Of a stretch of DNA of 42,275 nt, positions 5,437 through 24,849 are shown piece after piece; within the stretch, counting starts at the first letter, position 1, and every line of letters starts with the position of its first letter. The translations under genes and the position numbers were made by a program. The notes under the pieces were generated by a model. The model searched no databases and was not told the origin of the DNA. It worked only from the letters and a program-made list of their open reading frames with translations. Source of the DNA: Sphingomonadaceae bacterium (GTDB lineage: Bacteria > Pseudomonadota > Alphaproteobacteria > Sphingomonadales > Sphingomonadaceae); contig JAECRT010000004.1 in assembly GCA_016000085.1 (NCBI GenBank), positions 39,168 to 81,442 of the forward strand, written 5' to 3'.

Positions 5437-5858
5437 CCCTCTGGCCGGTCGGCCAGCAACAGGTCGCGCGCAGCGTTGATCTGTGCGGCCAATGCTTCGG
5501 TACCGCCCTTGTCGGGATGGACCGATGCGATCAGGCGGCGATGCGCGGCGCGGATGGCGTCGGGATCAGCATCGGGCGACAGGCCCAGCAAGGCGCGGGC
5601 CTGTGCGACATCGTCCCGCCGGGGTGCTTTGGGCGCGGGCCTGGCACGCTTGCCGCGCAGCTTGCCCTGTCCCGCGAAGAACAGCGCTGCACCGATCAGC
5701 AGCGGCGCACCGACCACCGGCTTGCCCTTGGCCGCGAGCACTGCGCCCACAAGCGCTGCGCCGAGCGCCATGCCATCTTTCGCCGTCATGCGTTGCAGCC
5801 TTCCCGTCCAGATCAGCCAGCCCGCAAGGCCGACCAGCAAAAGCGCGAGCCAGCCCAT
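5433..5858 (-). CDS. membrane-anchored J-domain protein
   Basis: The 141-residue protein has two hydrophobic segments near the N-terminus (about residues 2-16 and 29-62) and a C-terminal J domain (about residues 82-138). That domain contains the diagnostic 'HPDKGG' loop that stimulates the ATPase of DnaK. The Gly/Phe-rich and zinc-finger regions of full-length DnaJ are absent, so this is a type III (DnaJ-like, TIM14-like) co-chaperone probably held at the inner membrane. Its stop overlaps the start of the phosphomutase gene by four bases, and its ATG lies at the stop of mipZ, so it sits in a mipZ - J protein - phosphomutase operon. The client is unknown; the pairing with a sugar mutase may be only positional. 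Confidence 0.85.
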   Translation of the reverse strand: MGWLALLLVGLAGWLIWTGRLQRMTAKDGMALGAALVGAVLAAKGKPVVGAPLLIGAALFFAGQGKLRGKRARPAPKAPRRDDVAQARALLGLSPDADPDAIRAAHRRLIASVHPDKGGTEALAAQINAARDLLLADRPEG

Positions 5859-6658
5859 CAGGCCGCGCCGATCATGTCCATCGATGCGACGCCGGGACGT
5901 TCGGGCAAAGCGAGGCCCGACACCATTTCGCGCAATTCCTGGCGCGCGGCGATGTGGCTGACGCCCAGTTCGCCCAGATGACCCTTGTCGAGCAGAGTGA
6001 GGCCCGAGGGGAAGAGTTCGCGGAAGATCACACGCTCCGACAGGCCGGGGATGACGCGGAAACCGACCCGGCGGGACAATTCCATCAGCGCGTCGCCGAC
6101 CCGCTTCTTGTTGCGCGCGTCCTGATGCTGGACGCGGTTGCGCAGCACGACCCAGTCGATCGACACGCCATCGGCCTTGGCCCTGGTCTTGCGTGCTTCG
6201 AAGATGAGTTCGGAATAGAAGGACAGGCGGCGCACCTTAAAGGTTTCCGCATCGACCTGACCGATGAGGTCGAAATCGACGAAACTGTCGTTCATCGGCG
6301 TGACCAGCGTGTTGGCGCGCGCGGCCATGTGGCGAGCGAAATCATCGTCGCGACCGGGCGTGTCGACGATCAGGAAATCCTTGTCTTCAGACAGGGCGGC
6401 GACTTCGGATTCCAGCGCCTCCGTCGTATCGCCCTTGAGCACCGAAAAGGCGGGCGCGGGCAGATCGACAGTCCGGCGGCGGGCGGTTTCTGCGCGATTT
6501 TCAAGATAGCGGGTGACGGTGCGCTGACGGGGATCGAGATCGATTATCCCGACCCTGTGGCCCAGCATGGTCAGCGCAATTGCCGTGTGGACGGCCGTTG
6601 TCGATTTGCCGGTGCCGCCCTTTTCATTGGCGAAGACGATGAGATGCGGATTCGCCAT
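5858..6658 (-). CDS. mipZ: MipZ, division-plane positioning ATPase
   Basis: MipZ is a ParA/MinD-type ATPase. In alphaproteobacteria it binds ParB at the origin-proximal parS sites, forms a gradient away from the poles and blocks FtsZ assembly except at midcell. The 266-residue product starts at MANPHLIVFANEKGG (ATG 6658). It shows the deviant Walker A 'KGGTGKST' (signature Lys13, P-loop Lys18), the 'IIDLDPRQRTVTRYLENR' motif, the Walker B-like 'LIVDTPG', and 'VTPMNDSFVDFDLIG' and 'IYRELFP'-like 'IFRELFPSGLTLLD', all characteristic of MipZ rather than ParA. The open frame extends far upstream, but that part is only the antisense of panC. It heads the operon with the J-domain gene. It lies about 2.8 kb from the probable origin. 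Confidence 0.95.
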   Translation of the reverse strand: MANPHLIVFANEKGGTGKSTTAVHTAIALTMLGHRVGIIDLDPRQRTVTRYLENRAETARRRTVDLPAPAFSVLKGDTTEALESEVAALSEDKDFLIVDTPGRDDDFARHMAARANTLVTPMNDSFVDFDLIGQVDAETFKVRRLSFYSELIFEARKTRAKADGVSIDWVVLRNRVQHQDARNKKRVGDALMELSRRVGFRVIPGLSERVIFRELFPSGLTLLDKGHLGELGVSHIAARQELREMVSGLALPERPGVASMDMIGAA

Positions 6659-6733
6659 CGGACCCTGAAACCCCGTTGATTGTCGTAATGATTCTTGACG
6701 GTCGCTCGAACACAGTCCTAGCAGGACGTCATA

Positions 6734-7612
6734 ATGATCCCTGCCCTTATCGGAGCGTTTCCTCCCGTGCAAACCCTGCGTGACCTGCCCGCCCTGCGCA
6801 CCGCAATCGATGCGTTGAAACGCGACGGAAAGCCACTGGCGCTGGTGCCCACCATGGGGGCGCTGCATGACGGGCATATGGCGTTGGTGGAGGAAGCCCG
6901 GCGCGGCGGGCGCCATGTCGTCGTGTCGATCTTCGTCAATCCCAAGCAGTTTGGCGAGCATGAAGATCTGGACGCCTATCCCCGGCGCGAGGCGAAGGAC
7001 GCCCAGATGCTGACGGCGGCGGGGGTCGACATATTGTGGGCGCCGGGCGTGGAGGTCATGTACCCGGCGGGCTTTGCGACCAATATCAGCGTGTCGGGCG
7101 TCAGCGAGGGATTGGACGGCGCAGCGCGGCCGGGCCATTTCGATGGCGTCGCAACGGTCGTCACCAAGCTGTTCAACCAGGTTCGGCCCAACGTCGCCAT
7201 CTTTGGCGAAAAGGATTATCAGCAACTGGCGGTCATTCGCCGCATGGTCGCCGATCTGGACCTGCCGATCGAGATTATCGGGCTGGAGACGCAGCGGGCC
7301 GAGGATGGCCTCGCCCTGTCCTCTCGCAACGCCTATCTGAGCGAGGCGGAACGGCACGAAGCGGTCGCCCTGCCCCGCGCGCTGGGCGAAGCGAAGCGCC
7401 AGATGGAAAAGGGTGCAAGCGTGGAGGCGGCTATCGCCAAGGCGATCGCGACGCTGACCCACCATGGCTTTGATCCGATCGACTATGTGACGCTGTGCGA
7501 CGCGGCGACTCTGGCGCCGATGAGCGTGCTGGATCGCCCGGCCCGTTTGTTGGGCGCGGCGAAGCTGGGGACCACGCGACTGATCGACAATATCGCGGTG
7601 GACCCCGCTTAA
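6734..7612 (+). CDS. panC: pantoate--beta-alanine ligase
   Basis: PanC condenses pantoate and beta-alanine with ATP hydrolysis to AMP, giving pantothenate, the precursor of coenzyme A. The 292-residue protein has the nucleotidyltransferase signature 'PTMGALHDGH' (HxGH type), the 'IFVNPKQFG' motif, 'FGEKDYQQLAVIRRMV' and 'SSRNAYL', in the expected order and spacing. The ATG at 6734 follows an AGGA sequence; an internal GTG 36 bases later could also be used because the family consensus begins near 'VQTLRDLPALR'. It is the only plus-strand gene left of the probable origin and diverges from mipZ across a 75-base gap. Further along, coaE acts later in the same CoA pathway. Confidence 0.96.
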   Translation: MIPALIGAFPPVQTLRDLPALRTAIDALKRDGKPLALVPTMGALHDGHMALVEEARRGGRHVVVSIFVNPKQFGEHEDLDAYPRREAKDAQMLTAAGVDILWAPGVEVMYPAGFATNISVSGVSEGLDGAARPGHFDGVATVVTKLFNQVRPNVAIFGEKDYQQLAVIRRMVADLDLPIEIIGLETQRAEDGLALSSRNAYLSEAERHEAVALPRALGEAKRQMEKGASVEAAIAKAIATLTHHGFDPIDYVTLCDAATLAPMSVLDRPARLLGAAKLGTTRLIDNIAVDPA

Positions 7613-7772
7613 ATTGCGCGCGATTGCCTAACCCGCAATCGCCGCCGATCGGTTCGAAGTCGGCTTAACTTCGCACATTTCCCGGTAATCTTGAAATTTT
7701 GTTGCGCGGATCTTGTCCGCGCAAACGGGCGGCTTGCGCCTTGTAGCGTGGTCCCCCGCTGTAGGACAGCGA
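7613..7772. other. intergenic with two perfect hairpins between convergent panC and hemJ
   Basis: The 160-bp gap between two converging genes holds two perfect inverted repeats: GCGATTGC/GCAATCGC at 7620-7642 with a 7-base loop, and TTGCGCGGA/TCCGCGCAA at 7702-7724 with a 5-base loop. Neither is followed by a T-run on either strand, so they are at best weak or rho-assisted ends of the two transcripts. Confidence 0.55.
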
Positions 7773-8213
7773 TCAGAAAGGCTGGACGATCACCGCGATC
7801 ACGATCACCGCTGCGGCGATGCCCGGGATTTCGTTGAGCAGGCGCAGCTTTCGATCGGTCATGGGCCGCTGACCCTTGGCCAGCTTTTTCGCGTAGCTTA
7901 CGGTCCAGCCATGATAGCCCGACAGGCCCAGCACGAAGAGCAGTTTGAGGTGGAACCAGCCGAAATGCCACGCGCCGATCTGCACCATCAGCATCAGGCC
8001 GAAAACCCAGACAAGGACGAGCGACGGGTTGAGGATGATCTTGATGAGCCGCCGTTCCCGGTCGATCCACTTGCGATCCTCGTCCGATCCGGGCGCACAT
8101 TCCTGATGATAGATGAAGAAACGCGGAACCATGAACAGCCCGGCCATCAGGAAGATGACGAAAATGACATGGGCCGCCTTCACCCACGGATAGGCTGCGC
8201 CGAGCCATTCCAT
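7773..8213 (-). CDS. hemJ: protoporphyrinogen IX oxidase, HemJ family
   Basis: HemJ is the heme-containing inner-membrane protein that oxidises protoporphyrinogen IX to protoporphyrin IX in bacteria lacking HemG/HemY. The 146-residue product shows four hydrophobic helices. Conserved blocks are 'WVKAAHVIFVIFLMAGLFMVPR' near the N-terminus (carrying the conserved early histidine), 'FFIYH', and 'GWFHLKLLFVLGLSGYHG' in the middle with the conserved lysine. The ATG overlaps the hemE stop as TAATG, so translation is coupled to hemE; both enzymes act in the same pathway. The ending '...IVQPF' is typical. Older annotations use CopD-like or UPF0093. Confidence 0.93.
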   Translation of the reverse strand: MEWLGAAYPWVKAAHVIFVIFLMAGLFMVPRFFIYHQECAPGSDEDRKWIDRERRLIKIILNPSLVLVWVFGLMLMVQIGAWHFGWFHLKLLFVLGLSGYHGWTVSYAKKLAKGQRPMTDRKLRLLNEIPGIAAAVIVIAVIVQPF

Positions 8214-9274
8214 TACATGCTCTCCCCGTTGCGGACATAGGCGATCAGCGCTTCGACATGCGCGATCGGCGTGTCGGGCAGGATGCCATGGCCCAGATTA
8301 AGGATATGGGGGCGCCCGGCAAAGGCGGCGCGGATATTGTCCACGGCCCGTTCCACCGCCTGTCCCCCGGCGATCAACGCCAGCGGATCGAGATTGCCCT
8401 GCACCGGCAGGCCGGCGGGTAGCGCCGCATTGGCCCAGTGCGGATCGACCGTTTCATCCACGCCAATGGCGTCAACGCCGGTGCCGACCGCATAATCGGG
8501 CAGCTTTGCGCCCGCGCCCTTGGGAAAGCCGATGATCGGAATATGCGGGTGGAGCGCCTTCAATTTGCGGACGATGGCGGCGTTGGGGGCAATCACCCAG
8601 CGTTCGAACTGGAGCGGAGCGAGGCTGCCGGCCCAGCTGTCGAACAGCTGCACCGCTTCCACGCCCGCCTGAATCTGGCCCGACAGATAGATGACGGTGG
8701 CGTCGACAATGGCGTCGATCAGCGCGCCGAAGCGGGCCGGGTCGCCATAAGCGAGGCGACGGGCCGCGCCCTGGTCCTTGCTGCCCTGTCCCGCGACCAT
8801 ATAGGTCGCGATGGTCCAGGGACTGCCTGCAAAGCCCAGGAAGGTCACGGAGGGGTCTAGCGCGGCCTTCACCTGCCGCACGGTTTCATAGACCGCATCG
8901 AACCGGCTGAAGTCCGGCGTGAGCGCCGACAGATCGGTCTCGGCGAGAATAGGGGAGAGGCGGGGGCCTTCGCCGGTTTCGAACCACAGATGCTGACCCA
9001 TCGCATAAGGAACGATGAGAATGTCGGAAAAGAGGATCGCGCCGTCGAAGCCGAAGCGGCGCAGCGGTTGCAGAGTCACTTCCGCGGCGGCCGGGCTGTC
9101 ATAGACCAGTTCCAGGAACCCGCCCTTGTCGGCGCGCAAGGCGCGATATTCGGGCAGATAACGGCCCGCCTGGCGCATCAGCCACATGGGCGGCACGGCG
9201 GGTCGATCACCCCCCAGGACGGCGAGCAGGGGCTTGGCGGACGGGTCGCCGGACAGGATCTCGGAAGCCTTCAT
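8213..9274 (-). CDS. hemE: uroporphyrinogen decarboxylase
   Basis: HemE removes four carboxyl groups from uroporphyrinogen III to give coproporphyrinogen III in heme synthesis. The 353-residue protein has the family signature 'PPMWLMRQAGRYLPEYR' near residue 30, 'FGFDGAILFSDIL' with the catalytic Asp, 'GFAGSPWTIATYMVAG', 'VQLFDSWAG', and 'NLGHGILPDTP' near the C-terminus. Its promoter must lie in the probable origin region directly upstream (9275 onward). It is followed by hemJ in a two-gene heme operon. In Caulobacter, hemE also borders the chromosome origin and reads away from it, as here. Confidence 0.97.
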   Translation of the reverse strand: MKASEILSGDPSAKPLLAVLGGDRPAVPPMWLMRQAGRYLPEYRALRADKGGFLELVYDSPAAAEVTLQPLRRFGFDGAILFSDILIVPYAMGQHLWFETGEGPRLSPILAETDLSALTPDFSRFDAVYETVRQVKAALDPSVTFLGFAGSPWTIATYMVAGQGSKDQGAARRLAYGDPARFGALIDAIVDATVIYLSGQIQAGVEAVQLFDSWAGSLAPLQFERWVIAPNAAIVRKLKALHPHIPIIGFPKGAGAKLPDYAVGTGVDAIGVDETVDPHWANAALPAGLPVQGNLDPLALIAGGQAVERAVDNIRAAFAGRPHILNLGHGILPDTPIAHVEALIAYVRNGESM

Positions 9275-9561
9275 CTTATACTCTTAATTTTAGATTCAAG
9301 ATTGATGGAGATAGTAGGGGGCGCTGGGAGCGGGGTTTATGCGTTGCGCCCGGATTTGCCAACAGCTTGACTCCCTTGATGCCGCGTTTGCCGTCCGAGT
9401 CAGTCGAACTATCCCCGTTATCCACAGGCTGTGGACGAAAATGACGGTCTGTTTGCGGGCTGTGGATAAGATTCCCGGTAGCGTGGAGCGACGGAAAGCC
9501 GCGATTTTATCCCCAATTCCATCCTTGCTTTATCCACAGCCTCCCCACAGAGATATACGGC
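9275..9561. other. probable chromosomal replication origin (oriC) between hemE and the DUF299 gene
   Basis: The sequence shows three perfect DnaA boxes TTATCCACA: plus strand 9418-9426, minus strand 9461-9469, plus strand 9530-9538. There is also a one-mismatch box TTATCCCCA at 9507-9515 and a weaker one at 9430-9438 (minus). An AT-rich block at 9274-9318 could be the unwinding element. GANTC sites, the target of the cell-cycle methylase CcrM, occur at 9293, 9369, 9397 and 9470, with another at 9592 inside the next gene. It is known that the Caulobacter origin lies between hemE and the DUF299 gene. Most genes transcribe away from this point on both sides. No gene is present here. The hemE promoter probably overlaps it. 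Confidence 0.85.
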
Positions 9562-10389
9562 ATGGCGCGCATTCATCTTCACCTACTTTCGGACTCCACC
9601 GGCGAAACGCTGGAGAATATCGCCAAGGCGGCGATCGGTCTGTTCGAAAATGTGGAGGCGATCCGGCATTTCTGGCCGATGGTGCGATCCGAACTGCATC
9701 TGGACCGGATCATGGAGGAAATCGCCGCCAATCCGGGGCTGGTGCTGTTCACGCTGACCAACCATCCGCTGCGCAAGCGGCTGGAGACGCGGTGCCGGGC
9801 GCTGGGTCTGCCCCATGTCGCGGCGCTCGATAGCGTGGCGGACGCGCTGTCCAATATATTGGGGCAGGAAACACGGACCCGGCCGGGGCGCAAACATATA
9901 TTGGATGAAGCCTATTTCGCCCGGATCGAGGCGATCCAGTTCACCATCGCCCATGATGACGGGGTGGGGCATGAAAATTGGGAAGAGGCCGACATCGTGC
10001 TGGCGGGCGTATCGCGCGCGTCCAAGACACCGACCTCCATCTATCTGGCCAATCGCGGCTATAAGACCGCCAACATGCCGCTGGTGCCGGAATCGCCGCC
10101 GCCGCGCAGCCTGTACAGCCTCAAGCATCCGATGGTCGTGGGGCTGACGGTCAGTCCCGACCGCCTGATCCAGATCCGGCGCAACCGGCTGCTCTCGCTC
10201 AACCAGGCGCCCGAAACAGCCTATGTCGACAATGAGAAGGTCCAGGCGGAACTGGCCTTTGCCCGGCGGATGTTCGCCGACAACGGCTGGCCGGTGATCG
10301 ACATGACGCGCCGATCGATCGAGGAAGCGGCCGCCGCGATCATCAACCTGTTCAATGACCGGGAACTGGCCGAAGGAGAAGGTGCATGA
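9562..10389 (+). CDS. pyruvate, phosphate dikinase / PEP synthase regulatory protein (DUF299 kinase-pyrophosphorylase)
   Basis: This 275-residue protein belongs to the DUF299 (PPDK/PpsR regulatory protein) family. Members phosphorylate pyruvate phosphate dikinase or PEP synthase on threonine with ADP and also remove that phosphate by pyrophosphorolysis. Characteristic blocks are the start 'HLHLLSDSTGETLENIAKAA', the P-loop-like 'GVSRASKTPTSIYLANRG' in the middle, 'NMPLVPE', 'VGLTVSP' and 'DMTRRSIEEAAAAI' near the C-terminus. The first gene right of the probable oriC, it overlaps maf by four bases (ATGA). No PPDK or PEP synthase gene is in the window, so its target is inferred only from the family. 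The start follows a purine-rich CACAGAGA stretch. Confidence 0.93.
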   Translation: MARIHLHLLSDSTGETLENIAKAAIGLFENVEAIRHFWPMVRSELHLDRIMEEIAANPGLVLFTLTNHPLRKRLETRCRALGLPHVAALDSVADALSNILGQETRTRPGRKHILDEAYFARIEAIQFTIAHDDGVGHENWEEADIVLAGVSRASKTPTSIYLANRGYKTANMPLVPESPPPRSLYSLKHPMVVGLTVSPDRLIQIRRNRLLSLNQAPETAYVDNEKVQAELAFARRMFADNGWPVIDMTRRSIEEAAAAIINLFNDRELAEGEGA

Positions 10390-10991
10390 TCGTGCTGGCG
10401 TCGCAGAGCGCGAGCCGGCGGGCGATGCTGAGCGCGGCCGGCGTGCCGTTCGAGGTGCTGTCGCCTGGCGTGGATGAGGAAGCGGCGAAAGAGGCTTTGC
10501 GCGGCGATGGGCTGGACGCGCGGGCATTGGCCGATGCGCTGGCGGAATTGAAGGCGCTCAAAGTGTCGCGCCGAGTGCCGGGCGCGCTGGTGCTGGGATG
10601 CGACCAGACATTGAGTATCGGCGAAGGCGACGATCGCGGCGAAATGATCGACAAGGCAGTGGACCGGGCCGATGCGGCGCGCATCCTGCGGCTGTTGTCG
10701 GGGCGGGTGCATCATCTGCACAGTGCGGCGGTGATCGTGCTGAACGGCGAGCCGATCTGGCGGCATGTCGAGCGGGTACGGATGACGGTGCGGACGCTGA
10801 GCGACGCCTTTATCACATCCTATCTGGATGGCGACTGGGACGCATTGCGCTGGTGCGTGGGTTGTTACCGGATCGAGGGGCCGGGCGCGCAGCTGTTCGC
10901 CAAGGTCGAGGGCAGCCAGTTCGCGATTCAAGGGCTGCCGCTATTGCCGCTGCTTGACTTTCTGCGCGTGCGGGGCGTTTTGACAGCATGA
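10386..10991 (+). CDS. maf: Maf-family nucleoside triphosphate pyrophosphatase
   Basis: Maf proteins hydrolyse non-canonical or modified nucleotides (dTTP/UTP, m7GTP, pseudo-UTP) to monophosphates and are linked to division arrest. The 201-residue product begins with the family signature 'IVLASQSASRRAML' (S-x-S-x-R). Family blocks corresponding to 'LGADT' and 'DKP' read here as 'LGCDQTL' and 'MIDKAVDR', so the usual Ala-Asp-Thr is changed although the catalytic Asp is kept. The later 'CVGCYRIEGPGAQLFAKVEGS' matches the Maf C-terminal loop. It overlaps the genes on both sides by four bases, inside the DUF299-maf-aroE-coaE run. The exact nucleotide substrate cannot be inferred. Confidence 0.9.
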   Translation: MIVLASQSASRRAMLSAAGVPFEVLSPGVDEEAAKEALRGDGLDARALADALAELKALKVSRRVPGALVLGCDQTLSIGEGDDRGEMIDKAVDRADAARILRLLSGRVHHLHSAAVIVLNGEPIWRHVERVRMTVRTLSDAFITSYLDGDWDALRWCVGCYRIEGPGAQLFAKVEGSQFAIQGLPLLPLLDFLRVRGVLTA

Positions 10992-11812
10992 CCGACCAAC
11001 TCCCCTATGCCGAAGTGATCGGCGATCCGATCGCGCACAGCAAATCGCCCCTGATTCACAATTTCTGGCTGAAAGCGCTGGATATCGAGGCGGAATATAA
11101 GAAGACCCATGTGACGCCGGAGGGGCTGGCCGCCTATTTCCTGCAGCGGCGGGCGGACCCGGACTGGCTGGGATGCAATGTCACCATCCCGCACAAGATT
11201 GCGGTGATGGATTATACCGACGATCCGGGCGGGGTGCGCGAGCGGATCGGGGCGATGAACACGATCGCGTCGGAAACGGGCGGGCCGCTGATCGGCACCA
11301 ATACCGATGCGGGTGGCTTCCTGCAGCCGTTGTTGCGGGACAAGTGGAAGGGGCAGAGCGCCGTCCTGGTCGGCGCGGGCGGCGCGGCGCGGGCGATCCT
11401 GTTCGCGCTGACCAGCCTGGGCGTGCCGGACATCACCATCATGGCGCGCGATAGCGCCAAGGGGCAGGCGCTGCTGGACCGAGCCGGGGTGCAGGGGCGG
11501 GTGATCGGCATGGGCGATGCGCTGCCCGCCGCCGATATGCTGGTCAATTCGACGTCGCTGGGCATGGTGGGACAGCCTTTGCTGGAGCTGGACCTGACGC
11601 CGTTGCCCGAAAGCGCGACCGTATATGACATCGTTTATGCACCGCTGGAAACCGGGCTGCTCAAAGCGGCGCGGGCGCGGGGGCTGACCGCGCTGGATGG
11701 GCTGGAAATGTTGATCGGGCAGGCGGCGTTGGCGTTCGATATCTTTTTCGATGCGGAAGCGCCGCGGGACCGGGACGCGGAACTGCGTGCATTGCTGACC
11801 GCTGCCGATTGA
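10988..11812 (+). CDS. aroE: shikimate dehydrogenase
   Basis: AroE reduces 3-dehydroshikimate to shikimate with NADPH in aromatic amino-acid synthesis. The 274-residue protein has the substrate-binding start 'VIGDPIAHSKSPLIHN', the catalytic lysine in 'NVTIPHK', the paired aspartate in 'GTNTDAGGF', the NADP Rossmann loop 'LVGAGGAARAI', and the 'NSTSLGM' and 'DGLEMLIGQAALAF' blocks. All are in normal order and length. Its ATG overlaps the maf stop, and its TGA overlaps the coaE start (TGATG), so this is part of one translationally coupled operon starting at the DUF299 gene. Confidence 0.96.
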   Translation: MTDQLPYAEVIGDPIAHSKSPLIHNFWLKALDIEAEYKKTHVTPEGLAAYFLQRRADPDWLGCNVTIPHKIAVMDYTDDPGGVRERIGAMNTIASETGGPLIGTNTDAGGFLQPLLRDKWKGQSAVLVGAGGAARAILFALTSLGVPDITIMARDSAKGQALLDRAGVQGRVIGMGDALPAADMLVNSTSLGMVGQPLLELDLTPLPESATVYDIVYAPLETGLLKAARARGLTALDGLEMLIGQAALAFDIFFDAEAPRDRDAELRALLTAAD

Positions 11813-12405
11813 TGCGGATCTACGGTCTGACCGGCTCCATTGGCATGGGCAAGTCGGCGGTAGCGGCGATGTTCCGGCGCGAAGGCGTGCCGTTGTTCGA
11901 TGCCGATGCGGAGGTTCATCGCTTGCAGGGACCGGGCGGCGTGCTGTTGCCCGCGATCGAGGCGCGCTTTCCTGGCACGACCGGCGCGCGCGGCGTCGAT
12001 CGCGCGAAGCTGGGCGCGGCGGTATTTGGTGATCCGCACGCGCGGCGGGCATTGGAGGCGATCGTCCATCCAGCCGTACGGGCGGCGCGCGCCGCTTTCC
12101 TGCGGCGGCATCGGGCGCGCAACTTCGTGATCCTCGACATTCCGCTGCTGTTCGAAACGGGTGGGCAGACGGGGCTGGCTGGCGTGATCGTCGTCAGCGC
12201 GCCGGCCTGGAAACAGCGCAAGCGCGTGCTGGCCCGGCCGGGCATGACGGCGGCGAAATTCCGCCAGATCCTGCGCCTGCAAACGCCCGATGCGGAAAAA
12301 CGCCGTCGCGCCGATCATATTATCGATACGGGCACGACATTCACCGCCACCCGCGCACAAGTCAGCCGTCTGGTCGCTTGCCTTGGCGCGCAGACAGGCA
12401 GATAA
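11812..12405 (+). CDS. coaE: dephospho-CoA kinase
   Basis: CoaE phosphorylates the 3'-hydroxyl of dephospho-CoA, the last step of CoA synthesis. The 197-residue protein starts 'MRIYGLTGSIGMGKS' with the P-loop GSIGMGKS, followed by 'DADAEVHRL', 'LEAIVHPAV' and 'ILDIPLLFETG', the usual lid and substrate blocks. The ATG (11812) overlaps the aroE TGA; a TTG three bases earlier is in frame but unlikely. Codon and base composition match the neighbours. It is followed by dnaQ after only 20 bases, as in many alphaproteobacteria. Confidence 0.95.
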   Translation: MRIYGLTGSIGMGKSAVAAMFRREGVPLFDADAEVHRLQGPGGVLLPAIEARFPGTTGARGVDRAKLGAAVFGDPHARRALEAIVHPAVRAARAAFLRRHRARNFVILDIPLLFETGGQTGLAGVIVVSAPAWKQRKRVLARPGMTAAKFRQILRLQTPDAEKRRRADHIIDTGTTFTATRAQVSRLVACLGAQTGR

Positions 12406-12425
12406 GGGTTGGCCCAAGAGTCGAT

Positions 12426-13139
12426 ATGAAGAGGGCAATGCGCGAGATTATTTTCGATACCGAAACGACAGGCTTCGATCCGGCATCCGGTGACAGGATG
12501 GTCGAGATCGGCTGTATCGAACTCATTAACCGCGTGCCGAGCGGCCGCACCTTTCACGCATATTATAATCCCCAGCGCGACATGCCCGCCGCTGCCGAAG
12601 CGGTGCATGGGTTGTCGAGCCAGTTTCTGCGCGACAAGCCGCTGTTCGTCAGCGGTGTGGAGGAGTTACTCGCCTTTCTGGAGGACAGCCCGCTGGTCGC
12701 GCATAATGCGCGGTTCGACTTTGGTTTCCTCAATCATGAATTGCGCCTGTGCGCCCGGCCCGACGTGTCGCTCGATCGGATGATCGACACGGTGGCGATC
12801 GCGCGGACGCTGCATCCCGGCGCCAAGCACAGCCTGGACGCGCTGTGCACCCGTTACGGCATCGACCGCAGCCATCGCGTCAAGCATGGCGCGCTGCTCG
12901 ACGCGGAACTGTTGGCGCAACTCTATATCGAACTGACCGGAGGCCGCCAGATCGGCCTGGGTCTTGCACGGGAGGAAGAGAAAGCCGGTATCGGGATGGA
13001 ACTTGCGGCATCCGCCATAGTTCGCCCCGTTCGTCCTGCGCGCGTTTTCGAACCCAGCGCAGAGGAGCTGGAACGGCATGCCAGGTTCATCGCGACCCTG
13101 GAAAAGCCGCTCTGGCTGGAGGAGGCGCAGCCGGGCTGA
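12426..13139 (+). CDS. dnaQ: DNA polymerase III epsilon subunit (proofreading 3'-5' exonuclease)
   Basis: DnaQ proofreads for the replicative polymerase. The 237-residue product has all DEDDh exonuclease motifs: Exo I 'FDTETTGFDP' at the start, Exo II 'VAHNARFDFGFLN' in the middle, and Exo IIIe 'HGALLDAELLAQLY' with the catalytic His. The C-terminal third, which binds the alpha subunit, is variable and Pro/Arg-rich here. The start could be ATG 12426 (MKRAMREI) or ATG 12438 (MREI). The latter fits family N-termini, but a GAGGG only two bases before it is too close for a normal ribosome site. It ends the operon that starts at the DUF299 gene. Confidence 0.95.
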   Translation: MKRAMREIIFDTETTGFDPASGDRMVEIGCIELINRVPSGRTFHAYYNPQRDMPAAAEAVHGLSSQFLRDKPLFVSGVEELLAFLEDSPLVAHNARFDFGFLNHELRLCARPDVSLDRMIDTVAIARTLHPGAKHSLDALCTRYGIDRSHRVKHGALLDAELLAQLYIELTGGRQIGLGLAREEEKAGIGMELAASAIVRPVRPARVFEPSAEELERHARFIATLEKPLWLEEAQPG

Positions 13140-13213
13140 AAAGTCCGCGTCCGTGCCTCCTTGGTCATCCGGGCTTCAGTCCTTGGCGCCCGGCAAGAAT
13201 AAGGAGAAGGCAT

Positions 13214-13819
13214 ATGGATATTCGTGTTTCCGGGCACCAGGTCGAAACGGGCGAAGCGCTCAAGGAGCATGTCGCGACCCGCATGGAGGCCATAGCCGAG
13301 AAATATTTTGCTCGCACGATTTCCGCCCAGGTGACCTTCCGCAAGGCGCCACACGGCGCTTTCCACTGCGATATCGTGTGCCATGTCATGACCGGCCTGA
13401 TCCTGAAGGGCGCGGGCGAAGCGCAGGAGGCTCATCCCGGTTTCGATCAGGCGGCCGAGCGGATCGAGAAGCAGTTGCGCCGCTATATGCGCCGTCTGAA
13501 GGATCGCCACGCCCAGTCTGCCGCTGCCGAGGCGCAGCGCGCCAATGGCTATAGCGTCGATGATATCGATGGCGCAGGCTATACCATCTTCGCCGCCGCG
13601 ATCGACCAGGAAGAAGAAGCGGTCGACGCACCCCTGATCGTGGCGGAAACGCGGGTCGACATTCCCGAAGCGAGCGTGTCGGACGCGGTCATGATGCTGG
13701 ACCTGCGCAACACCAACGCGCTGTTGTTCGTGAATGCGGGAACGGCGGCCTATAATATGGTCTATCGCCGCCATGACGGGACGATCGGCTGGGTCGAGCC
13801 GCGCCTTCAGGCAAGCTGA
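13214..13819 (+). CDS. hpf: ribosome hibernation-promoting factor, long form (HPF/RaiA family)
   Basis: Long HPF binds the decoding centre and joins 70S ribosomes into inactive 100S dimers in slow growth. The 201-residue protein begins MDIRVSGHQVETGEALKEHV, with the S30AE domain in the first 110 residues and the C-terminal dimerisation domain (about residues 145-200) including 'PMMLDLRNT'-like 'AVMMLDLRNTNALLFVN' and 'YNMVYRRHDGTIGWVEP'. The strong AAGGAG at 13201 sets the ATG at 13214; an open frame further upstream is only the overlap with dnaQ. ptsN follows 130 bases downstream, a common pairing in proteobacteria, although the usual rpoN upstream is not here. Confidence 0.95.
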   Translation: MDIRVSGHQVETGEALKEHVATRMEAIAEKYFARTISAQVTFRKAPHGAFHCDIVCHVMTGLILKGAGEAQEAHPGFDQAAERIEKQLRRYMRRLKDRHAQSAAAEAQRANGYSVDDIDGAGYTIFAAAIDQEEEAVDAPLIVAETRVDIPEASVSDAVMMLDLRNTNALLFVNAGTAAYNMVYRRHDGTIGWVEPRLQAS

Positions 13820-13949
13820 GTCCCCGTTAGACAGCCGGGCCGCCTGTTGACCTGAAGGTGCAGGCGGCCTATGGCGCCGGGCTTTGGTATCCCCAAGCAT
13901 CGCGCATGATATATACGGCAAGGCGCGGCTTGGCCGGTTCGGATAGATC
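13820..13949. other. hpf-ptsN intergenic hairpin
   Basis: The 130-bp gap holds a perfect 9-bp inverted repeat, GGCCGCCTG at 13838-13846 and CAGGCGGCC at 13861-13869, with a 14-base loop. There is no T-run after it. It may stabilise the 3' end of hpf mRNA or dampen read-through into ptsN. Confidence 0.45.
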
Positions 13950-14417
13950 ATGGTTGATTTCCACGACATCGTTTCGCCTGACGCCCTCGCAACGGGCATG
14001 TCGGCGAACGGTAAGAAACAGTTGTTCCAGAAGATCGGGGCGCTCGCAGCAACCGCCTATGGACTGGATGTCGACAGTGTCGCCGACGCTTTGTTCGAGC
14101 GCGAGCGACTGGGGTCGACCGGCTTTGGTGGCGGCGTAGCCATTCCCCATGCGAAAATTGCCGGGCTGGATCGCATGTGTGGCGTGGTGGTGCTGCTGAA
14201 CCCGGCGGCTCCGTTCGATGCCGTGGACGATGTGCCGGTCGACATCGTGTTCGCCCTGCTGTCGCCGGTCGACAGTGGCGCGGAGCATCTCAAGACTTTG
14301 GCGCGCGTGTCGCGTTACCTGCGCGACGATGCGCAGGTTGCCCGGTTGCGGGGCGCCAAGGCGACCGCGGCGCTTCATGCGCTGCTTGCAGGCGGCGGGA
14401 CGCGTGACGCAGCCTGA
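13950..14417 (+). CDS. ptsN: nitrogen-type PTS EIIA component (EIIA-Ntr)
   Basis: PtsN is the end acceptor of the regulatory PTS-Ntr phosphorelay (EI-Ntr, NPr, EIIA-Ntr), controlling potassium uptake, nitrogen responses and sometimes stringent signalling. The 155-residue protein has the phospho-His block 'GFGGGVAIPHAKI', with the family 'PHAK' histidine, 'FERERLGSTG' before it, and the 'DIVFALLSPVDSGAEHLKTLARVSRYLRD' region, all diagnostic. The ATG at 13950 follows a weak GGATAGATC stretch. The next gene starts within two bases of its stop. The rest of the relay is not in this window. Confidence 0.93.
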   Translation: MVDFHDIVSPDALATGMSANGKKQLFQKIGALAATAYGLDVDSVADALFERERLGSTGFGGGVAIPHAKIAGLDRMCGVVVLLNPAAPFDAVDDVPVDIVFALLSPVDSGAEHLKTLARVSRYLRDDAQVARLRGAKATAALHALLAGGGTRDAA

Positions 14418-14418
14418 C

Positions 14419-14871
14419 ATGCCGCCAGCCAGCGGCGAAACCGCGCATTTCCGTGCGCTGGAGACGCTGTACGGGTCCGCGCCGATCAATCGGCTGTTCC
14501 GATCGACGCTGTCGATCCCCGAAGCAGGCCGGTCGATCATCGATTTCGATGTCGATGAAAGCCAGTTTCACGCGGCGGGCGCGGTGCATGGCACCGTCTA
14601 TTTCAAGATGCTCGACGATGCCGCCTTTTATGCGGCGAACAGCCTGGTGAGCGATCGCTTTTTGCTGACCACGGCGTTCAACCTACTGTTCACCCGACCG
14701 ATCGGGCCGGGCCGTATCCGGGCGGAGGGCCGCTGGATCAGTGGCAAGCGGCGCGTCTATGTCGCCGAAGCCAGTTTGATCGATTCGGACGGCGAGGAAG
14801 TCGGGCGAGGCACCGGCACCTTCATGCGATCGCAATTTTCTCTCTCATCGCTGCCGGGATATCGTGGCTGA
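14419..14871 (+). CDS. PaaI/hotdog-fold thioesterase-like protein
   Basis: The 150-residue product has a single hotdog fold typical of PaaI/YiiD acyl-CoA thioesterases. A helix region 'HGTVYFKMLDDAAFYAANS' follows a beta strand and is equivalent to the 'HGG..FxLaDxA' motif with its acid residue; then come strands such as 'FNLLFTRPIGPGRIRAEGRW' and 'VYVAEASLID'. The substrate is unknown. ATG 14419 lies one base after the ptsN stop; a GTG at 14404 inside ptsN is an alternative. It overlaps the DUF1491 gene by eight bases. Family is well supported, enzyme activity is inferred. Confidence 0.8.
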   Translation: MPPASGETAHFRALETLYGSAPINRLFRSTLSIPEAGRSIIDFDVDESQFHAAGAVHGTVYFKMLDDAAFYAANSLVSDRFLLTTAFNLLFTRPIGPGRIRAEGRWISGKRRVYVAEASLIDSDGEEVGRGTGTFMRSQFSLSSLPGYRG

Positions 14872-15214
14872 TTATGACGACAGCGCGCGGCTGACCAGCG
14901 CCATGCTGGTGGGGGCGCTGGTACGGCGGGCGTCTGCGGCTGGCGGCTTTGCCATGATCCTGGTCAAGGGCGATGCGACCAGCGGCGTGATATTGGTGCA
15001 AGCGGTTGAAAAAGGACGGGAAACTGGACTTTTTGAACGTGTATCGAACTTTGCCGGAGGTCATGCGTTGATGCGCTGTGGACCTGCCCCGGAGGATGGT
15101 GCGGAGTCGCTCGCGCTATATATAGCGCGCCGCCGCAAGTCGGACCCCGACCTGTGGATAATTGAACTCGACATCCCGGAAGCGGAACGGTTTGCCGCTG
15201 AATCCCTGTGCTGA
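14864..15214 (+). CDS. DUF1491 family protein
   Basis: The 116-residue protein matches the alphaproteobacterial DUF1491 family. It has an N-terminal 'LTSAMLVGALVRRASAAGGFAMILVKGD' block, a central 'SGVILVQ' strand and a C-terminal 'DPDLWIIELDIPEAERF' block. Function is not known. Translation starts at GTG 14864 inside the end of the thioesterase gene, so the two are coupled. It is soluble and has no visible catalytic motif. It closes the hpf-ptsN-thioesterase-DUF1491 run. Confidence 0.8.
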   Translation: MADYDDSARLTSAMLVGALVRRASAAGGFAMILVKGDATSGVILVQAVEKGRETGLFERVSNFAGGHALMRCGPAPEDGAESLALYIARRRKSDPDLWIIELDIPEAERFAAESLC

Positions 15215-15389
15215 TCGTTGACATGGTGGAACGGCCCGTGCATTTGGCCGCCGTCGCTGAACGCGCAGGTTGCCACATTCGCCCAAGGGGGGCGGGCGGG
15301 GTAAACACGCAGACGGGGGGCGGCCGAACGTCAGAGAATATGTGTTAAAGCGACGTTTCCGGCCAAGAACCGCATGATTTTGAGCCGTA

Positions 15390-16061
15390 ATGAGTTTCCG
15401 TTTAAGAGCTGCGATAATCGCGGCATTGGCTATGTCCGCTACGGCGGCGGTCACAGCTTCCGACATGTCGATCGCTGGTGAGTCGATCCATTCGGCAGTA
15501 TCCCTTCCGGGGAACAATGCGCTGAACGCAGCGCCTTCGGCCGGCAACAAGCCCGCCGTCATCTTTGCAGCGCCGCGTGAAGTCACGCAGCCGCTCGTAT
15601 CGGCAGCCGCTGCCGATGCTTCGTCTTTTTCCTCTTCCGACAGCCAGGCCGACAGCCTCGTTGCTCTGGTCGACGCCCATGGCGCACCTGAACAGCTCGA
15701 CGGCGACATGCATTGCCTGGCCGGCGCAGTCTATTTCGAATCCAAGGGCGAAAGCCTGGAAGGCCAGCTGGCCGTCGCACGTGTCATCATCAATCGCGCC
15801 AAGTCTGGCCGTTTCGCCAGCAGCCTGTGCGGTGTCGTTTATCAGCCCAGCCAGTTCAGCTTCGTGCGCGGTGGCACCATGCCGTCGATCCGCACCGAAG
15901 GCAGCAGCTGGCGCGAAGCCGTCGCCATCGCCCAGATTGCGATGGAAGACAGCTGGGACAGCAGTGCCGAAGGCGCGCTGTTCTTCCACGCCCGTCGCGT
16001 CTCGCCGGGTTGGGGCAAGGCCAAGCTGGCGTCGATCGACAATCATATCTTTTATCGCTGA
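15390..16061 (+). CDS. SleB-type cell wall hydrolase (Hydrolase_2)
   Basis: The 223-residue exported protein has a signal peptide (about the first 23 residues), a low-complexity Ser/Ala linker to about residue 105, and a C-terminal SleB/CwlJ-like domain. Diagnostic blocks are 'LAGAVYFESKGESLEGQLAVARVIINR' with the catalytic-type Glu in 'YFESKGE', 'CGVVYQPSQFSFV', and 'ALFFHA...PGWGK'. In Bacillus these enzymes degrade spore cortex; in alphaproteobacteria they are thought to be periplasmic lytic enzymes. A strong terminator follows at 16120. The 175-bp gap before it probably holds its own promoter. Confidence 0.88.
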   Translation: MSFRLRAAIIAALAMSATAAVTASDMSIAGESIHSAVSLPGNNALNAAPSAGNKPAVIFAAPREVTQPLVSAAAADASSFSSSDSQADSLVALVDAHGAPEQLDGDMHCLAGAVYFESKGESLEGQLAVARVIINRAKSGRFASSLCGVVYQPSQFSFVRGGTMPSIRTEGSSWREAVAIAQIAMEDSWDSSAEGALFFHARRVSPGWGKAKLASIDNHIFYR

Positions 16062-16119
16062 GTGAGCGTTGGTGGATGCGCGCAGGCGCGTTCGCCCGGT
16101 TCCAGCCCAGATCGAAGAC

Positions 16120-16155
16120 GGCCGGTTCGGATCATCCGAATCGGCCTTTTCTTTT
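16120..16155 (+). terminator. rho-independent terminator after the SleB-type gene
   Basis: GGCCGGTTCGGAT (16120-16132) and ATCCGAATCGGCC (16134-16146) form a long stem (one G-U pair) followed by TTTTCTTTT. It lies 58 bases after the SleB-type stop and 28 bases before the mmcB start, so the mmcB promoter must overlap it or sit inside it unless mmcB is transcribed by read-through. Confidence 0.88.
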
Positions 16156-16182
16156 GTTCCCCACTTGTTCTATGATCGGTCG

Positions 16183-16677
16183 ATGAGTAGCGCCCCGATA
16201 GAGACCTGTTCACCCCTGACCGACGGCACCGCGCAGGCCGTAGCGCGCGGTACGCTGCGCCTTTTCTATCGCCATGACATGAGCGGAATTCTGGAAGTGC
16301 CGCTGCCCAACGGCCGCCGCGCCGACATCATGGCGATCGACGGAGCCGGGCGGCTGACCATCGTGGAAATCAAGTGCAGCCGCGCCGACCTGTTGGGCGA
16401 CATGAAATGGCCGGATTATTTCGATTATTGCGACCGCTATTTCTGGGCGGTGCCGATGGGGTTCGACCTCAGCCTGTTCGATAGCGAGGCGCTGTGGCCC
16501 GCCCGTACCGGGCTGATCGTGGCGGATCAATATGACGCCGAACTGGTGCGCCCCGCGCCGGTGGAGCCGCTGGCGGCGGCACGGCGCAAGGCGGAAACGC
16601 TACGCTTCGCCCGCCGCGCGGCCCGCCGTCTGACGGCGCTGGCCGACCCGGAGCATGTGGCGGAACTGGGGTGGTGA
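16183..16677 (+). CDS. mmcB: MmcB-family DNA repair protein
   Basis: MmcB is a LexA-regulated nuclease-fold protein found in Caulobacter by its role in mitomycin C and UV tolerance. This 164-residue product has the PD-(D/E)xK-like core 'GRRADIMAIDGAGRLTIVEIKCSRADLLGDMKWPDY', where the acid and 'EIK' residues are visible, followed by 'DYCDRYFWAVP' and 'TGLIVAD'. Start ATG 16183 (MSSAPIE) is chosen because upstream codons cross the terminator. I did not find an evident SOS box before it. The gene ends 80 bases before the YdeI-like gene. Confidence 0.88.
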   Translation: MSSAPIETCSPLTDGTAQAVARGTLRLFYRHDMSGILEVPLPNGRRADIMAIDGAGRLTIVEIKCSRADLLGDMKWPDYFDYCDRYFWAVPMGFDLSLFDSEALWPARTGLIVADQYDAELVRPAPVEPLAAARRKAETLRFARRAARRLTALADPEHVAELGW

Positions 16678-16757
16678 GGTCAAAGGCGCACGTCTTTTGA
16701 CATTTGCCGATCCGATTGCCAGTTTTGCGTCAGACCGATCTGGCTGGAGTATCTTGC

Positions 16758-17063
16758 ATGACGGATGGCTTTCTGCACGGAACCGTTCACCGGGCGCCGG
16801 ATGACTTGCAGGCAGCAATAGCGGCCGATCCGGCTGTCCTGGCGCTGTGGCAGACGCTGACGCCGCTAGGCCGAAACGAATTCATCTGCTGGATCGAGGA
16901 TGCCAAGCAGGCCGCGACGCGGGCCCGCCGCATCGCGCGCAGTTGCGAGGAGATGCTGGAGGGGAAGAAGCGGCCCTGTTGCTGGGCGGGATGCATCCAC
17001 CGCACCGACAAGGCGCCGGGCAAATGGCAGCAGGCGGTCTTGATCGACAAGAAAAAGCGTTAA
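16758..17063 (+). CDS. YdeI/OmpD-associated-like small protein
   Basis: The 101-residue product resembles the C-terminal helical part of YdeI/OmpD-associated (bacteriocin-protection) proteins: 'DDLQAAIAADPAVLALWQTLTPLGRNEFICWIEDAKQAATRARRI' is the usual pattern for these, in which a helix-turn-helix-like 'A...RNEfi.WI..AK...TRarRI' block is conserved. Four Cys-containing residues and a basic C-terminus follow ('CCWAGCIH'). Function of the family is poorly known. Its stop overlaps the stop of the ankyrin gene coming from the other strand (17060-17063). ATG 16758 is preferred over an earlier in-frame start at 16704. Confidence 0.72.
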   Translation: MTDGFLHGTVHRAPDDLQAAIAADPAVLALWQTLTPLGRNEFICWIEDAKQAATRARRIARSCEEMLEGKKRPCCWAGCIHRTDKAPGKWQQAVLIDKKKR

Positions 17064-17674
17064 AATACTGGTCCTTGTACTGGCCCCTTGGGGGTGGTGC
17101 TGGCCTTGGCGGCGGCGAGGGCGTCGACCAGGCCGGGGGTGCGGTTGTCGCGATCGGCATAGTCGCGGGCGGACATGCCCGCGATGCTGTCACGGCGGTC
17201 GGGGTTCGCGCCCTGGGCCACGAGCAGGCGCACAAGGGCCACGTCGCGCAACTGCACCGCGCGGATCAGCGGGGTTTCGCCGCTGCCATTGACCTTGTCC
17301 ACCTGTGCGCCATTGGCGAGCAGGGTCCGTACCCCTTCTTCGAAGCGGCCCTGTACGGCGGCCATCAGGGGGGTATTACCATTATTGTCGGCGAGATTGG
17401 GATTGGCGCCCTTGGCCAGCATGAAGCTGAGCCAGGTTGGGTCGCGGCGGGCGATGACGATGTGCAAGGCGCTTTCGCCGGTCGATACGTCGCGGCTGTT
17501 GACCACGGTCGATCCGGGCTTTTGCAGCAGGTCGGTGGCTTTTTCCCCGTCCTTGTCCTTCACGGCCTTGAGGAAATTATAATTGTCCGAAAACTGGGCC
17601 TGCGCCGCCGTGGGGATCAGCAGCGCGAGCGCCAACGGAGCCAACCATGCGGAAACCTTCACCTTCTTCATCAC
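17060..17674 (-). CDS. exported ankyrin-repeat protein
   Basis: The 204-residue protein has a signal peptide (cleavage likely after 'AAQA') and three to four ankyrin repeats between about residues 60 and 180. Repeats include 'GESALHIVIARRDPTWLSFMLAKGANPN', 'GNTPLMAAVQGRFEEGVRTLLANGAQVD' and 'GETPLIRAVQLRDVALVRLLVAQGANPD'-type units, each 33 residues. Ankyrin repeats bind proteins; an exported one in the periplasm is usually of unknown partner, sometimes guarding catalase or toxin immunity. It diverges from the SCO1 gene across about 50 bases and converges with the YdeI-like gene. A second ATG three bases on is equally possible. Confidence 0.85.
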   Translation of the reverse strand: MMKKVKVSAWLAPLALALLIPTAAQAQFSDNYNFLKAVKDKDGEKATDLLQKPGSTVVNSRDVSTGESALHIVIARRDPTWLSFMLAKGANPNLADNNGNTPLMAAVQGRFEEGVRTLLANGAQVDKVNGSGETPLIRAVQLRDVALVRLLVAQGANPDRRDSIAGMSARDYADRDNRTPGLVDALAAAKASTTPKGPVQGPVF

Positions 17675-17727
17675 ACGCCCCGTTATATTTGCAAATTACG
17701 TCCTAGCAGGGCATGGCTGGCGGCACC

Positions 17728-18366
17728 ATGAACAAAGCGACGATCCTGCTCGCCGTGCCACTGCTGGCCCTGCTTCAAGCCTGTAATATGGGGGGCGGCG
17801 GCAACGCATCAAGCGGTGACAGCGTGCAGGGCGAATTGGCCGGCGCGCGGATCGGCGCGCCCTTCACCCTGACCAATCAGGATGGCAAGCCGACGCAATG
17901 GGACGATTTTAAGGGCCAGTACCGGCTCGTCTATTTCGGCTATACCTATTGTCCGGATGTCTGCCCGGTCGACCTGCAACGCATCATGCAGGCCTTTGCC
18001 CGGTTCGAGAAGGACAAGCCCGCACTGGCAGCCAAGGTGCAGCCGATGCTGATCAGCGTCGATCCGGTGCGGGATACGCCCGCCGTGCTGAAAACCTATG
18101 TCGCAGCGTTCCACCCGCGCCTGATCGGCCTGACCGGCACGCCGGAACAGATCGCCAAGGTGGCGAAGGACTTCGTCGTGATCTATAATGCGGAAGGCAA
18201 AGCGGGGGCGAGCGACTATCTGGTCAGCCACAGCCGCACGCCTTATCTGTTCGATGGCGATGGAAAGCCCGTGGCGTTGGTGCCGGTGGACGATCCGGGG
18301 ACGCCGGACGTTGACGAGGGCGCACCCGACGCGGTGCTGGCCTTCCTTGAAAAATGGGTCAAGTGA
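17728..18366 (+). CDS. SCO1/SenC-family copper chaperone lipoprotein
   Basis: SCO proteins deliver copper to, or reduce cysteines of, the CuA centre of cytochrome c oxidase. The 212-residue product has a lipoprotein signal with lipobox 'LLQAC' (Cys19), a short Gly/Ser linker and a thioredoxin fold. The copper ligands are the CxxxC in 'YCPDVCP' and the conserved histidine in 'LVSHSRTPYLFD'. 'ISVDPVRDTP' is also typical. Start ATG 17728 (MNKATILL) puts the lipobox at the usual distance; ATG 17713 would lengthen it. YcgN follows after three bases. No cytochrome oxidase genes are in the window. Confidence 0.92.
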   Translation: MNKATILLAVPLLALLQACNMGGGGNASSGDSVQGELAGARIGAPFTLTNQDGKPTQWDDFKGQYRLVYFGYTYCPDVCPVDLQRIMQAFARFEKDKPALAAKVQPMLISVDPVRDTPAVLKTYVAAFHPRLIGLTGTPEQIAKVAKDFVVIYNAEGKAGASDYLVSHSRTPYLFDGDGKPVALVPVDDPGTPDVDEGAPDAVLAFLEKWVK

Positions 18367-18369
18367 CGG

Positions 18370-18795
18370 TTGGACTTCTGGGAAAAGCCGCTCGACAGGC
18401 TGGACCGTGCCGAATGGGAAGCTCTGTGCGACGGATGCGGCAAATGCTGCCTGCATAAGGCTGAAGATGAGGATACGGGGCGGATCTATCCGACCAACGT
18501 CGCCTGCCGCCTGCTCGACCGGCAGAGCGGGCAATGCACCAATTACAAGGACCGGCGCAAATTCGTGCCCGATTGCGTGCGGCTGACCCCGGCGAAGGTC
18601 AAGCAGATCAGCTGGTTGCCGCGAACCTGCGCCTATCGGCTGCGGGAAGAAGGGTTGCCGTTGCCGGAGTGGCATTATCTGGTGTGTGGCGACCGGGAAG
18701 CGGTGCATCGCGCGAAGGAATCGGTGCGCGGCTGGACCGTGGCGGAAGCCGAGGCGGGCGATCTGGAAAATCATCTTGTCGACCGGGACATCTGA
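18370..18795 (+). CDS. YcgN-family cysteine cluster protein (UPF0260)
   Basis: The 141-residue product is a member of the YcgN/UPF0260 family of small cysteine-rich proteins, probably metal-binding (zinc or iron-sulfur). Visible are 'CDGCGKCCLH' near residue 20, then single cysteines in 'NVACRLLD', 'GQCTNY', 'PDCVRLTP', 'RTCAYRL' and 'LVCGD', the normal set. The function is unknown. Translation begins at a TTG (18370) four bases after the SCO1 stop because the family start 'FWEKPLDRL' is there and no ATG is in frame. The YgjP-type gene follows with overlap. Confidence 0.87.
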   Translation: MDFWEKPLDRLDRAEWEALCDGCGKCCLHKAEDEDTGRIYPTNVACRLLDRQSGQCTNYKDRRKFVPDCVRLTPAKVKQISWLPRTCAYRLREEGLPLPEWHYLVCGDREAVHRAKESVRGWTVAEAEAGDLENHLVDRDI

Positions 18796-19486: not shown

Positions 19487-19488
19487 GT

Positions 19489-20298: not shown

Positions 20299-20363
20299 GG
20301 CCGCGCCTATAGGCGTTCGGGCCGCCACTTGAAAGTGGGCCGCCGACGGCGCATAGCCGGGTC

Positions 20364-21023: not shown

Positions 21024-21212
21024 AGAAACGTTACGGAAACCGGAAATTTACCCGTTGCGGATATACCACAGGGTATGAAGATCATGTCGTCTCATCGCGT
21101 ACAAGGCGCGGAAATGCTGGGCTCTCTTGCGTTGAGCCTGCTGTGGCAGCATAATCACCCACGGTTTCCGACACAGAAAAAATCTGTGCGGACCAGGAGA
21201 GGATCAACCAGA
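21024..21212 (+). promoter_or_regulatory. leader of the TonB-receptor gene with two hairpins
   Basis: The 189-bp upstream stretch holds an inverted repeat TTTCCGT/ACGGAAA (21009-21039, overlapping the pdeM stop). Just before the ribosome site it has a hairpin CCG-CACAG/CTGTG-CGG at 21168-21191 with an A-rich loop. The Shine-Dalgarno AGGAGAGG begins at 21195 and the ATG is 21213. The lower hairpin is close enough to influence ribosome access. No known riboswitch is recognised. Confidence 0.4.
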
Positions 21213-24023: not shown

Positions 24024-24034
24024 GCGGCTCATAG

Positions 24035-24075: not shown

Positions 24076-24091
24076 ATGGCGGCGGCGCGGC

Positions 24092-24826: not shown

Positions 24827-24849
24827 GCGGGCTGCTATAGGGCAGGGCG

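Follow-up and report, generated by a model that had tools for sequence, protein, structure and literature searches.

Probable chromosomal replication origin in the hemE/ppsR spacer of a Sphingobium-like bacterium

The closest described counterparts of the locus reported here are origins that lie beside hemE. In Caulobacter crescentus, the origin (Cori) was found experimentally in the hemE/DUF299 pair (PMC1914354), as the original prediction stated. For most Sphingomonadaceae, oriC is predicted close to hemE in DoriC, where conserved boxes have been described together with a putative unwinding element (PMC4741004, 2016); for Novosphingobium PP1Y, hemE and a dnaA gene are both described as neighbors of the origin (PMC4059872). 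In Sphingomonadales, proximity of dnaA to the origin is reportedly not conserved, and parAB might serve as an anchor (PMC8116508). Placement in the hemE spacer is thus not new but an already published expectation for Sphingomonadaceae, and the suggestion that it would be informative for another family was overstated (PMC4741004, PMC4059872).

We analyzed a 42,275-nucleotide stretch (the window) of a 116-kb contig, C73, from a Sphingobium-like genome whose assembly comprises 3,230,385 bp in 89 contigs and is 83% complete. Synteny, a cluster of DnaA boxes that occurs once in the assembly and is shared by near relatives, an unstable AT-rich block, parS/parAB nearby, and a flip in octamer polarity all support what was predicted, namely, that the 287-bp spacer between hemE and ppsR is very probably the hemE-type origin of chromosomal replication (oriC); from these sequence features, we put the probability at about 93%. 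The locus resembles the origins of Sphingopyxis granuli TFA (PMC4741004) and Novosphingobium PP1Y (PMC4059872) and those in DoriC in its position near hemE, its DnaA boxes, and its family, and, like TFA, it has a putative unwinding element in a setting of conserved gene order (PMC4741004); unlike TFA and PP1Y, it belongs to a Sphingobium-like genome. With Cori it has in common the hemE and DUF299/COG1806 flanks, an AT-rich block, several DnaA sites (PMC1914354), and GANTC motifs (PMC3973325). Its features are as follows, in window positions.

8213 to 9274, minus strand: hemE (uroporphyrinogen decarboxylase), left boundary gene (PF01208, E 2.5e-110)
9275 to 9561, unstranded: candidate oriC, intergenic, 287 bp, between divergent hemE and ppsR
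9277 to 9316, unstranded: AT-rich block beside the hemE start, candidate duplex unwinding element (stability scan)
9293 to 9297, unstranded: GANTC site 1, in 22/28 aligned Sphingobium-like spacers
9355 to 9373, plus strand: conserved element TTTGCCAACANNTTGACTC, with ≤2 mismatches in 55/81 spacers
9369 to 9373, unstranded: GANTC site 2, inside the TTTGCCAACANNTTGACTC element, in 27/28 aligned spacers
9397 to 9401, unstranded: GANTC site 3, in 28/28 aligned spacers
9418 to 9426, plus strand: DnaA box 1, perfect TTATCCACA (exact motif match)
9430, minus strand: DnaA site with two mismatches (motif match)
9461 to 9469, minus strand: DnaA box 2, perfect TTATCCACA (exact motif match)
9470 to 9474, unstranded: GANTC site 4, adjoining DnaA box 2, in 20/28 aligned spacers
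9507 to 9515, plus strand: DnaA box 3, one mismatch, TTATCCCCA (motif match)
9530 to 9538, plus strand: DnaA box 4, perfect TTATCCACA, perfect at the same place in 28/28 Sphingobium-like spacers
9562 to 10389, plus strand: ppsR/DUF299 (kinase-PPPase), right boundary gene (PF03618, E 1.2e-91; NF003742 above cutoff)
10386 to 13139, plus strand: maf-aroE-coaE-dnaQ, adjoining ppsR (family matches)
41879 to 41892, unstranded: parS palindrome GTTCCACGTGGAAC, 32 kb right of the candidate origin, with parA and parB just past the window end

The hemE start codon reaches to 9274 and PpsR/DUF299 begins at 9562, so that positions 9275 to 9561 are intergenic; the interval proved as free of genes as predicted. 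The GC content of the spacer is 52.6%, compared with 57 to 68% in all 42 1-kb bins of the window. The three perfect boxes (two plus, one minus) and the one-mismatch box were recovered exactly, at 9418, 9461, and 9530 and at 9507, respectively; the perfect trio spans 121 bp, and the 265 bp first given holds when the AT-rich block is counted in. Most genes do read away from this point: of the ORFs chosen for scanning from the 139 listed in the window, 22 have an above-cutoff family match, and 20 of those point away from the spacer, the exceptions being panC (6734 to 7612, plus) and an aspartyl-protease gene (34905 to 36320, minus). A gene for the division-site regulator MipZ lies 2.6 kb from the candidate origin (5858 to 6667, minus). 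A 535-amino-acid ORF at 5858 to 7465 that would make MipZ a fusion protein was rejected as an artifact of the ORF list, its upstream part being antisense to panC.

The clustering of boxes exceeds chance. Nine DnaA boxes with ≤1 mismatch occur in the window, versus 3.33 expected, and none of 100 shuffles reached nine. Across the assembly there are eight perfect boxes: three in the spacer, one at window position 15153, and four singles on four other contigs; a reversed control pattern gave nine matches in the same assembly. The chance that any three of eight random sites would fall inside 121 bp has an upper bound of 2.4e-7, and the hemE/ppsR spacer holds the only trio of perfect boxes in this 83% complete assembly. 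One-mismatch boxes of the assembly were searched on C73, where no group of ≥3 boxes (≤1 mismatch, within 300 bp) was found outside the spacer. The same search over 20 chromosomes (C73, a 192-kb stretch of the relative G051, and 18 further relatives) found groups of three in the hemE/ppsR spacer only. Sixteen of the 18 relatives were covered from about −9 or −10 to +30 kb around the locus, and the other two, G008 and G011, from a contig start inside the spacer rightward; G011 shows no group. The further perfect box at 15153 to 15161 (minus) lies 5.6 kb right of ppsR, inside an open frame at 14864 to 15214, and is common to 6/80 named loci at about +5.6 kb, some loci being too short to show it; our guess is that coding constraint has kept it.

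To place the spacer among its relatives, we used the best 80 of at least 561 related loci, which with the window give 81 spacers. Divergent hemE and ppsR were present in all 80 of these loci from other genomes. The 81 spacers (24.6 kb) contain 113 perfect boxes, versus 11 in 1.58 Mb of flanks, i.e., 4.6 versus 0.007 per kb (∼660-fold); for one-mismatch boxes, the counts are 132 and 235. At least one perfect box occurs in 56/81 spacers, at least two in 39, and at least three in 16, and 25 have none; boxes near −144 and −101 recur among the Sphingobium-like spacers (n = 28). Spacers of six loci (L035, L056, L067, L070, L078, and L083) measure 383 to 943 bp, against the usual length of about 285 bp. 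Contig 1 of G011 opens with a perfect box that precedes ppsR by 32 bp; in G008, ppsR starts at base 173 of contig 1, so that this contig, too, begins inside the spacer; the depositors of both genomes thus appear to have set base one there. A class-wide sample of 144 genomes, including our own, gave a ppsR match in 99, of which the 29 best besides our own were examined. hemE was divergent within 294 to 866 bp in 26 of these loci and was not seen in the 3.8 kb fetched for the other 3, for which the box count covers the 800 bp that precede ppsR. A perfect box was present in 9/29 class loci, and ≥3 boxes with up to one mismatch were present in 10/29. Finding the gene pair in 26 loci and a perfect box in only 9 marks the pair as old and the strong box pattern as a trait of the nearer relatives.

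The AT-rich block, also noted at the outset, was confirmed: of the 42,236 40-mers in the window, the one that begins at 9277 has the lowest stability, and in 77/81 spacers the 40-mer of lowest stability is centered ≤60 bp from the hemE start. Just after the block, TAGTAG at 9312 to 9317 is a candidate DnaA-trio, a motif that we applied in what we take to be its usual form; it lies 101 bp from the nearest perfect box, and GATAG occurs in 18/28 Sphingobium-like spacers.

Besides the boxes, the spacer carries the 19-bp element TTTGCCAACANNTTGACTC. At ≤2 mismatches it is absent from 26/81 spacers and from all 81 flanks on both strands (one flank has a match with three), and its 17-base core has a single exact copy in each of 65 loci out of the 254 fetched, many being redundant views of the same origins. 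The element could be part of a leftward hemE promoter (TTGGCA, 17 bases, TAAACC); the promoter scan was silent at this sequence and found no sigma-70 promoter or terminator in 9150 to 9700, other promoter types lying outside its range, and there were no Rfam matches at 8000 to 17000. The genome has matches to GcrA and to the RAMA domain, the latter seen within the control set in Caulobacter alone and presumably as expected of CcrM. GANTC density is 16.2 per kb in the 28 Sphingobium-like spacers versus 1.9 in flanks and 12.8 versus 2.6 per kb in the other 53, counts that come from related spacers and not from independent sequences; in the window spacer taken alone, enrichment is mild (P = 0.022). 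Part of this density can be ascribed to the general GANTC excess in intergenic DNA of Alphaproteobacteria (PMC3973325).

We looked for three elements of the Caulobacter Cori: an IHF site, CtrA sites, and moderate G-box DnaA sites. By WATCAANNNNTTR, which we take to be a stricter IHF pattern, no site was found in any of the 81 spacers, the window's included. By the looser pattern WATCAN5WTR, taken like the CtrA patterns from PMC1914354, the window's spacer again has none and 6/81 spacers have a site; degenerate IHF sites may escape both patterns. Cori has five CtrA sites (PMC4468827), unlike our spacer, in which neither the strict nor the loose pattern matches. The strict site TTAA-N7-TTAA is absent from the whole window and from 76/81 spacers and present in 5, and the looser TTWWN7TTWW, also absent from the window's spacer, is present in 16/81; a CtrA-like sequence with one mismatch, TTAA-N7-TTCA, lies at 9284 to 9298. 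Of the 16 spacers with a loose site, 14 are among the 53 that do not belong to the Sphingobium-like group, where the density is 0.90 versus 0.25 per kb in flanks, which leaves room for CtrA control in other sphingomonads; AT-richness may lie behind this excess. The DnaA sites differ as well: Cori has moderate G-box and weak W-box sites (PMC4468827), unlike the three perfect boxes here, and the G-box TGATCCACA (T to G) is missing from the window's spacer and found in 3/81. Neither GANTC nor CtrA is mentioned in the main text of PMC4741004. We met no mention of TTTGCCAACANNTTGACTC in the parts of the origin literature consulted, a survey by subject and not by its letters that covered articles rather than the alignment file of PMC4741004.

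Markers of chromosome segregation lie on the same contig. All four matches in the assembly to the parS motif, which we used in the form that we assume to be standard, fall on C73 at 81046 to 97212, i.e., +32 to +49 kb from ppsR, in a region that also holds mnmE, mnmG, parA, and parB. In the 7 relatives counted (four further genomes were left out), 21/21 parS matches are on the same contig as ppsR, 24 to 50 kb away; a reversed parS control gave a single palindromic match apiece in two of the seven. The dnaA gene is on another contig, C79, unlike in Novosphingobium PP1Y, where a dnaA gene is described near the origin (PMC4059872). A dnaA-linked origin was rejected, as C79 has no perfect box in the perfect-match search of the assembly, and so was a parAB-linked origin, as no box cluster was found near parAB.

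Strand asymmetry gave a coarser picture. The original prediction had looked to a skew minimum at the locus and to the absence of a competing box cluster by dnaA or parA; no such cluster was found in the 83% complete assembly (perfect boxes on the dnaA contig, boxes with ≤1 mismatch by parAB), and the skew gave no clear answer. On C73, cumulative GC skew has no minimum at the locus, climbs on both sides, faster rightward, and is lowest at base 327. For G051 (a single contig; 40 evenly spaced 20-kb samples), splitting at the locus gives arm skews of +0.021 and −0.024, and the minimum of the best two-arm fit falls 382 kb away, with near-best positions at +382 to +483 kb that exclude the locus. 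With 21 samples each and more noise, G033 has its best-fit minimum 501 kb off (near-best, −509 to −29 kb), and G050 has its minimum 559 kb off (near-best, −925 to +902 kb). When the split is equal and set at the locus, its rank among 720 is 108 (G033), 39 (G050), and 55 (G051). GC skew was thus discarded as proof of an origin: it fails on C73 and is too noisy in the sampled relatives.

The octamer GGGNAGGG, which we take to be FtsK orienting (KOPS-like), was more informative. On C73, it occurs 1 time forward and 10 times reverse to the left of the locus and 11 and 2 times to the right, so that 21/24 copies are concordant; only 31 of 100,000 label shuffles did as well, and three similar octamers gave left-versus-right ratios of 1:4 and 4:4, 3:1 and 8:2, and 6:3 and 12:4. 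The best switch interval is window positions 7368 to 24840, which include the locus. In the sampled relatives, the arms have ratios of 49:6 and 6:40 (G033), 45:21 and 17:37 (G050), and 68:15 and 12:67 (G051), and in the 80 named loci, forward:reverse counts are 44:187 on the left and 48:98 on the right. When up to 20 chromosomes are combined (each bin drawing on 11 to 20), the forward:reverse counts are 5:0 (−10 to −6 kb), 5:24 (−6 to −2 kb), 4:17 (−2 to +2 kb), 1:18 (+2 to +10 kb), 50:14 (+10 to +22 kb), and 19:25 (+22 to +30 kb). The octamer is therefore good for telling arms apart and was rejected as a fine map, the pooled switch being shifted at least 10 kb rightward; together with the skew results, this shift means that asymmetry locates the origin to within tens of kilobases and not to the spacer.

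An origin some 10 to 50 kb rightward of the spacer, close to mnmE-mnmG-parAB and parS, would match the arrangement in many other bacteria, and the shift of the pooled switch speaks for it. Three relatives (G033, G047, and G001) have no forward GGGNAGGG up to +30 kb, and parS and parAB lie at 81 to 84.6 kb of C73. We nevertheless hold it to be highly improbable, the least likely of the readings considered, since no group of ≥3 boxes turned up outside the hemE spacer on C73 or in the relatives (with a reach of +30 kb) and since parS is usually near the origin rather than at it, parAB anchoring it in Alphaproteobacteria (PMC4468827, PMC8116508). Scarcely more probable is that the spacer is a DnaA-regulated divergent hemE/ppsR promoter region whose boxes serve transcription. 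DnaA is also a transcription factor, with boxes in many Caulobacter promoters (PMC4468827), and the spacer must in any case house two divergent promoters. A role in transcription alone is difficult to reconcile with the only perfect-box cluster of the assembly, with no rival cluster found nearby, or with the same gene pair flanking the experimentally found origin of Caulobacter; an AT-rich block and the proximity of parS would be unexpected for a mere promoter, and the scan, which did not cover other promoter types, showed no sigma-70-like one.

If the spacer is oriC, ATP-DnaA would assemble on the box array at 9418 to 9538, and strain would open the AT-rich block at about 9275 to 9316 beside the hemE start, where the helicase would be loaded. 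Two forks would depart in opposite directions, one via hemE-hemJ and the other via ppsR-maf-aroE-coaE-dnaQ, and the parS/parAB segment 32 kb rightward would be copied early and then segregated. The four GANTC sites, fully methylated before fork passage and hemimethylated after it, may give a once-per-cycle signal via CcrM/GcrA. A bolder idea, which we regard as rather unlikely and offer tentatively from the motif pattern, is that TTTGCCAACANNTTGACTC, fused to one GANTC among further conserved GANTC sites, forms a lineage-specific control module that replaces the CtrA control of Caulobacter and couples firing, or hemE transcription via the unwinding element, to CcrM methylation, perhaps through a dedicated binding protein.

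Perfect DnaA boxes elsewhere in the relatives form a pattern of their own. Five of 61 genus genomes (G016, G018, G022, G030, and G051) contain 44 to 54 of them, compared with 5 to 24 in the other 56. In the three with full box lists, boxes outside oriC fall mostly within the 40% of the main contig nearest oriC (35/40 in G051, 39/42 in G030, and 43/48 in G022); the reversed control has a mild bias to the same 40% too (10/13, 12/18, and 10/14, respectively). Loci of box-rich genomes include a GH115 gene with four perfect boxes in a 311-bp stretch (e.g., L094, 14448 to 14758; L141, 12827 to 16416), and these genomes look as if they carry origin-proximal DnaA titration sites. Tandem perfect boxes 10 bp apart occur away from oriC (G050:C1:1508178, G011:C1:2058484, G059:C1:1039245, G051:C1:1893208, and others) and possibly mark a DnaA-controlled promoter.

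With the spacer as the probable oriC, this contig and its relatives gain a fixed base zero, against which strand and gene dosage can be interpreted. The TTTGCCAACANNTTGACTC element and the GANTC set offer a concrete starting point, open to test, for asking how control may work at an origin that lacks CtrA consensus sites.
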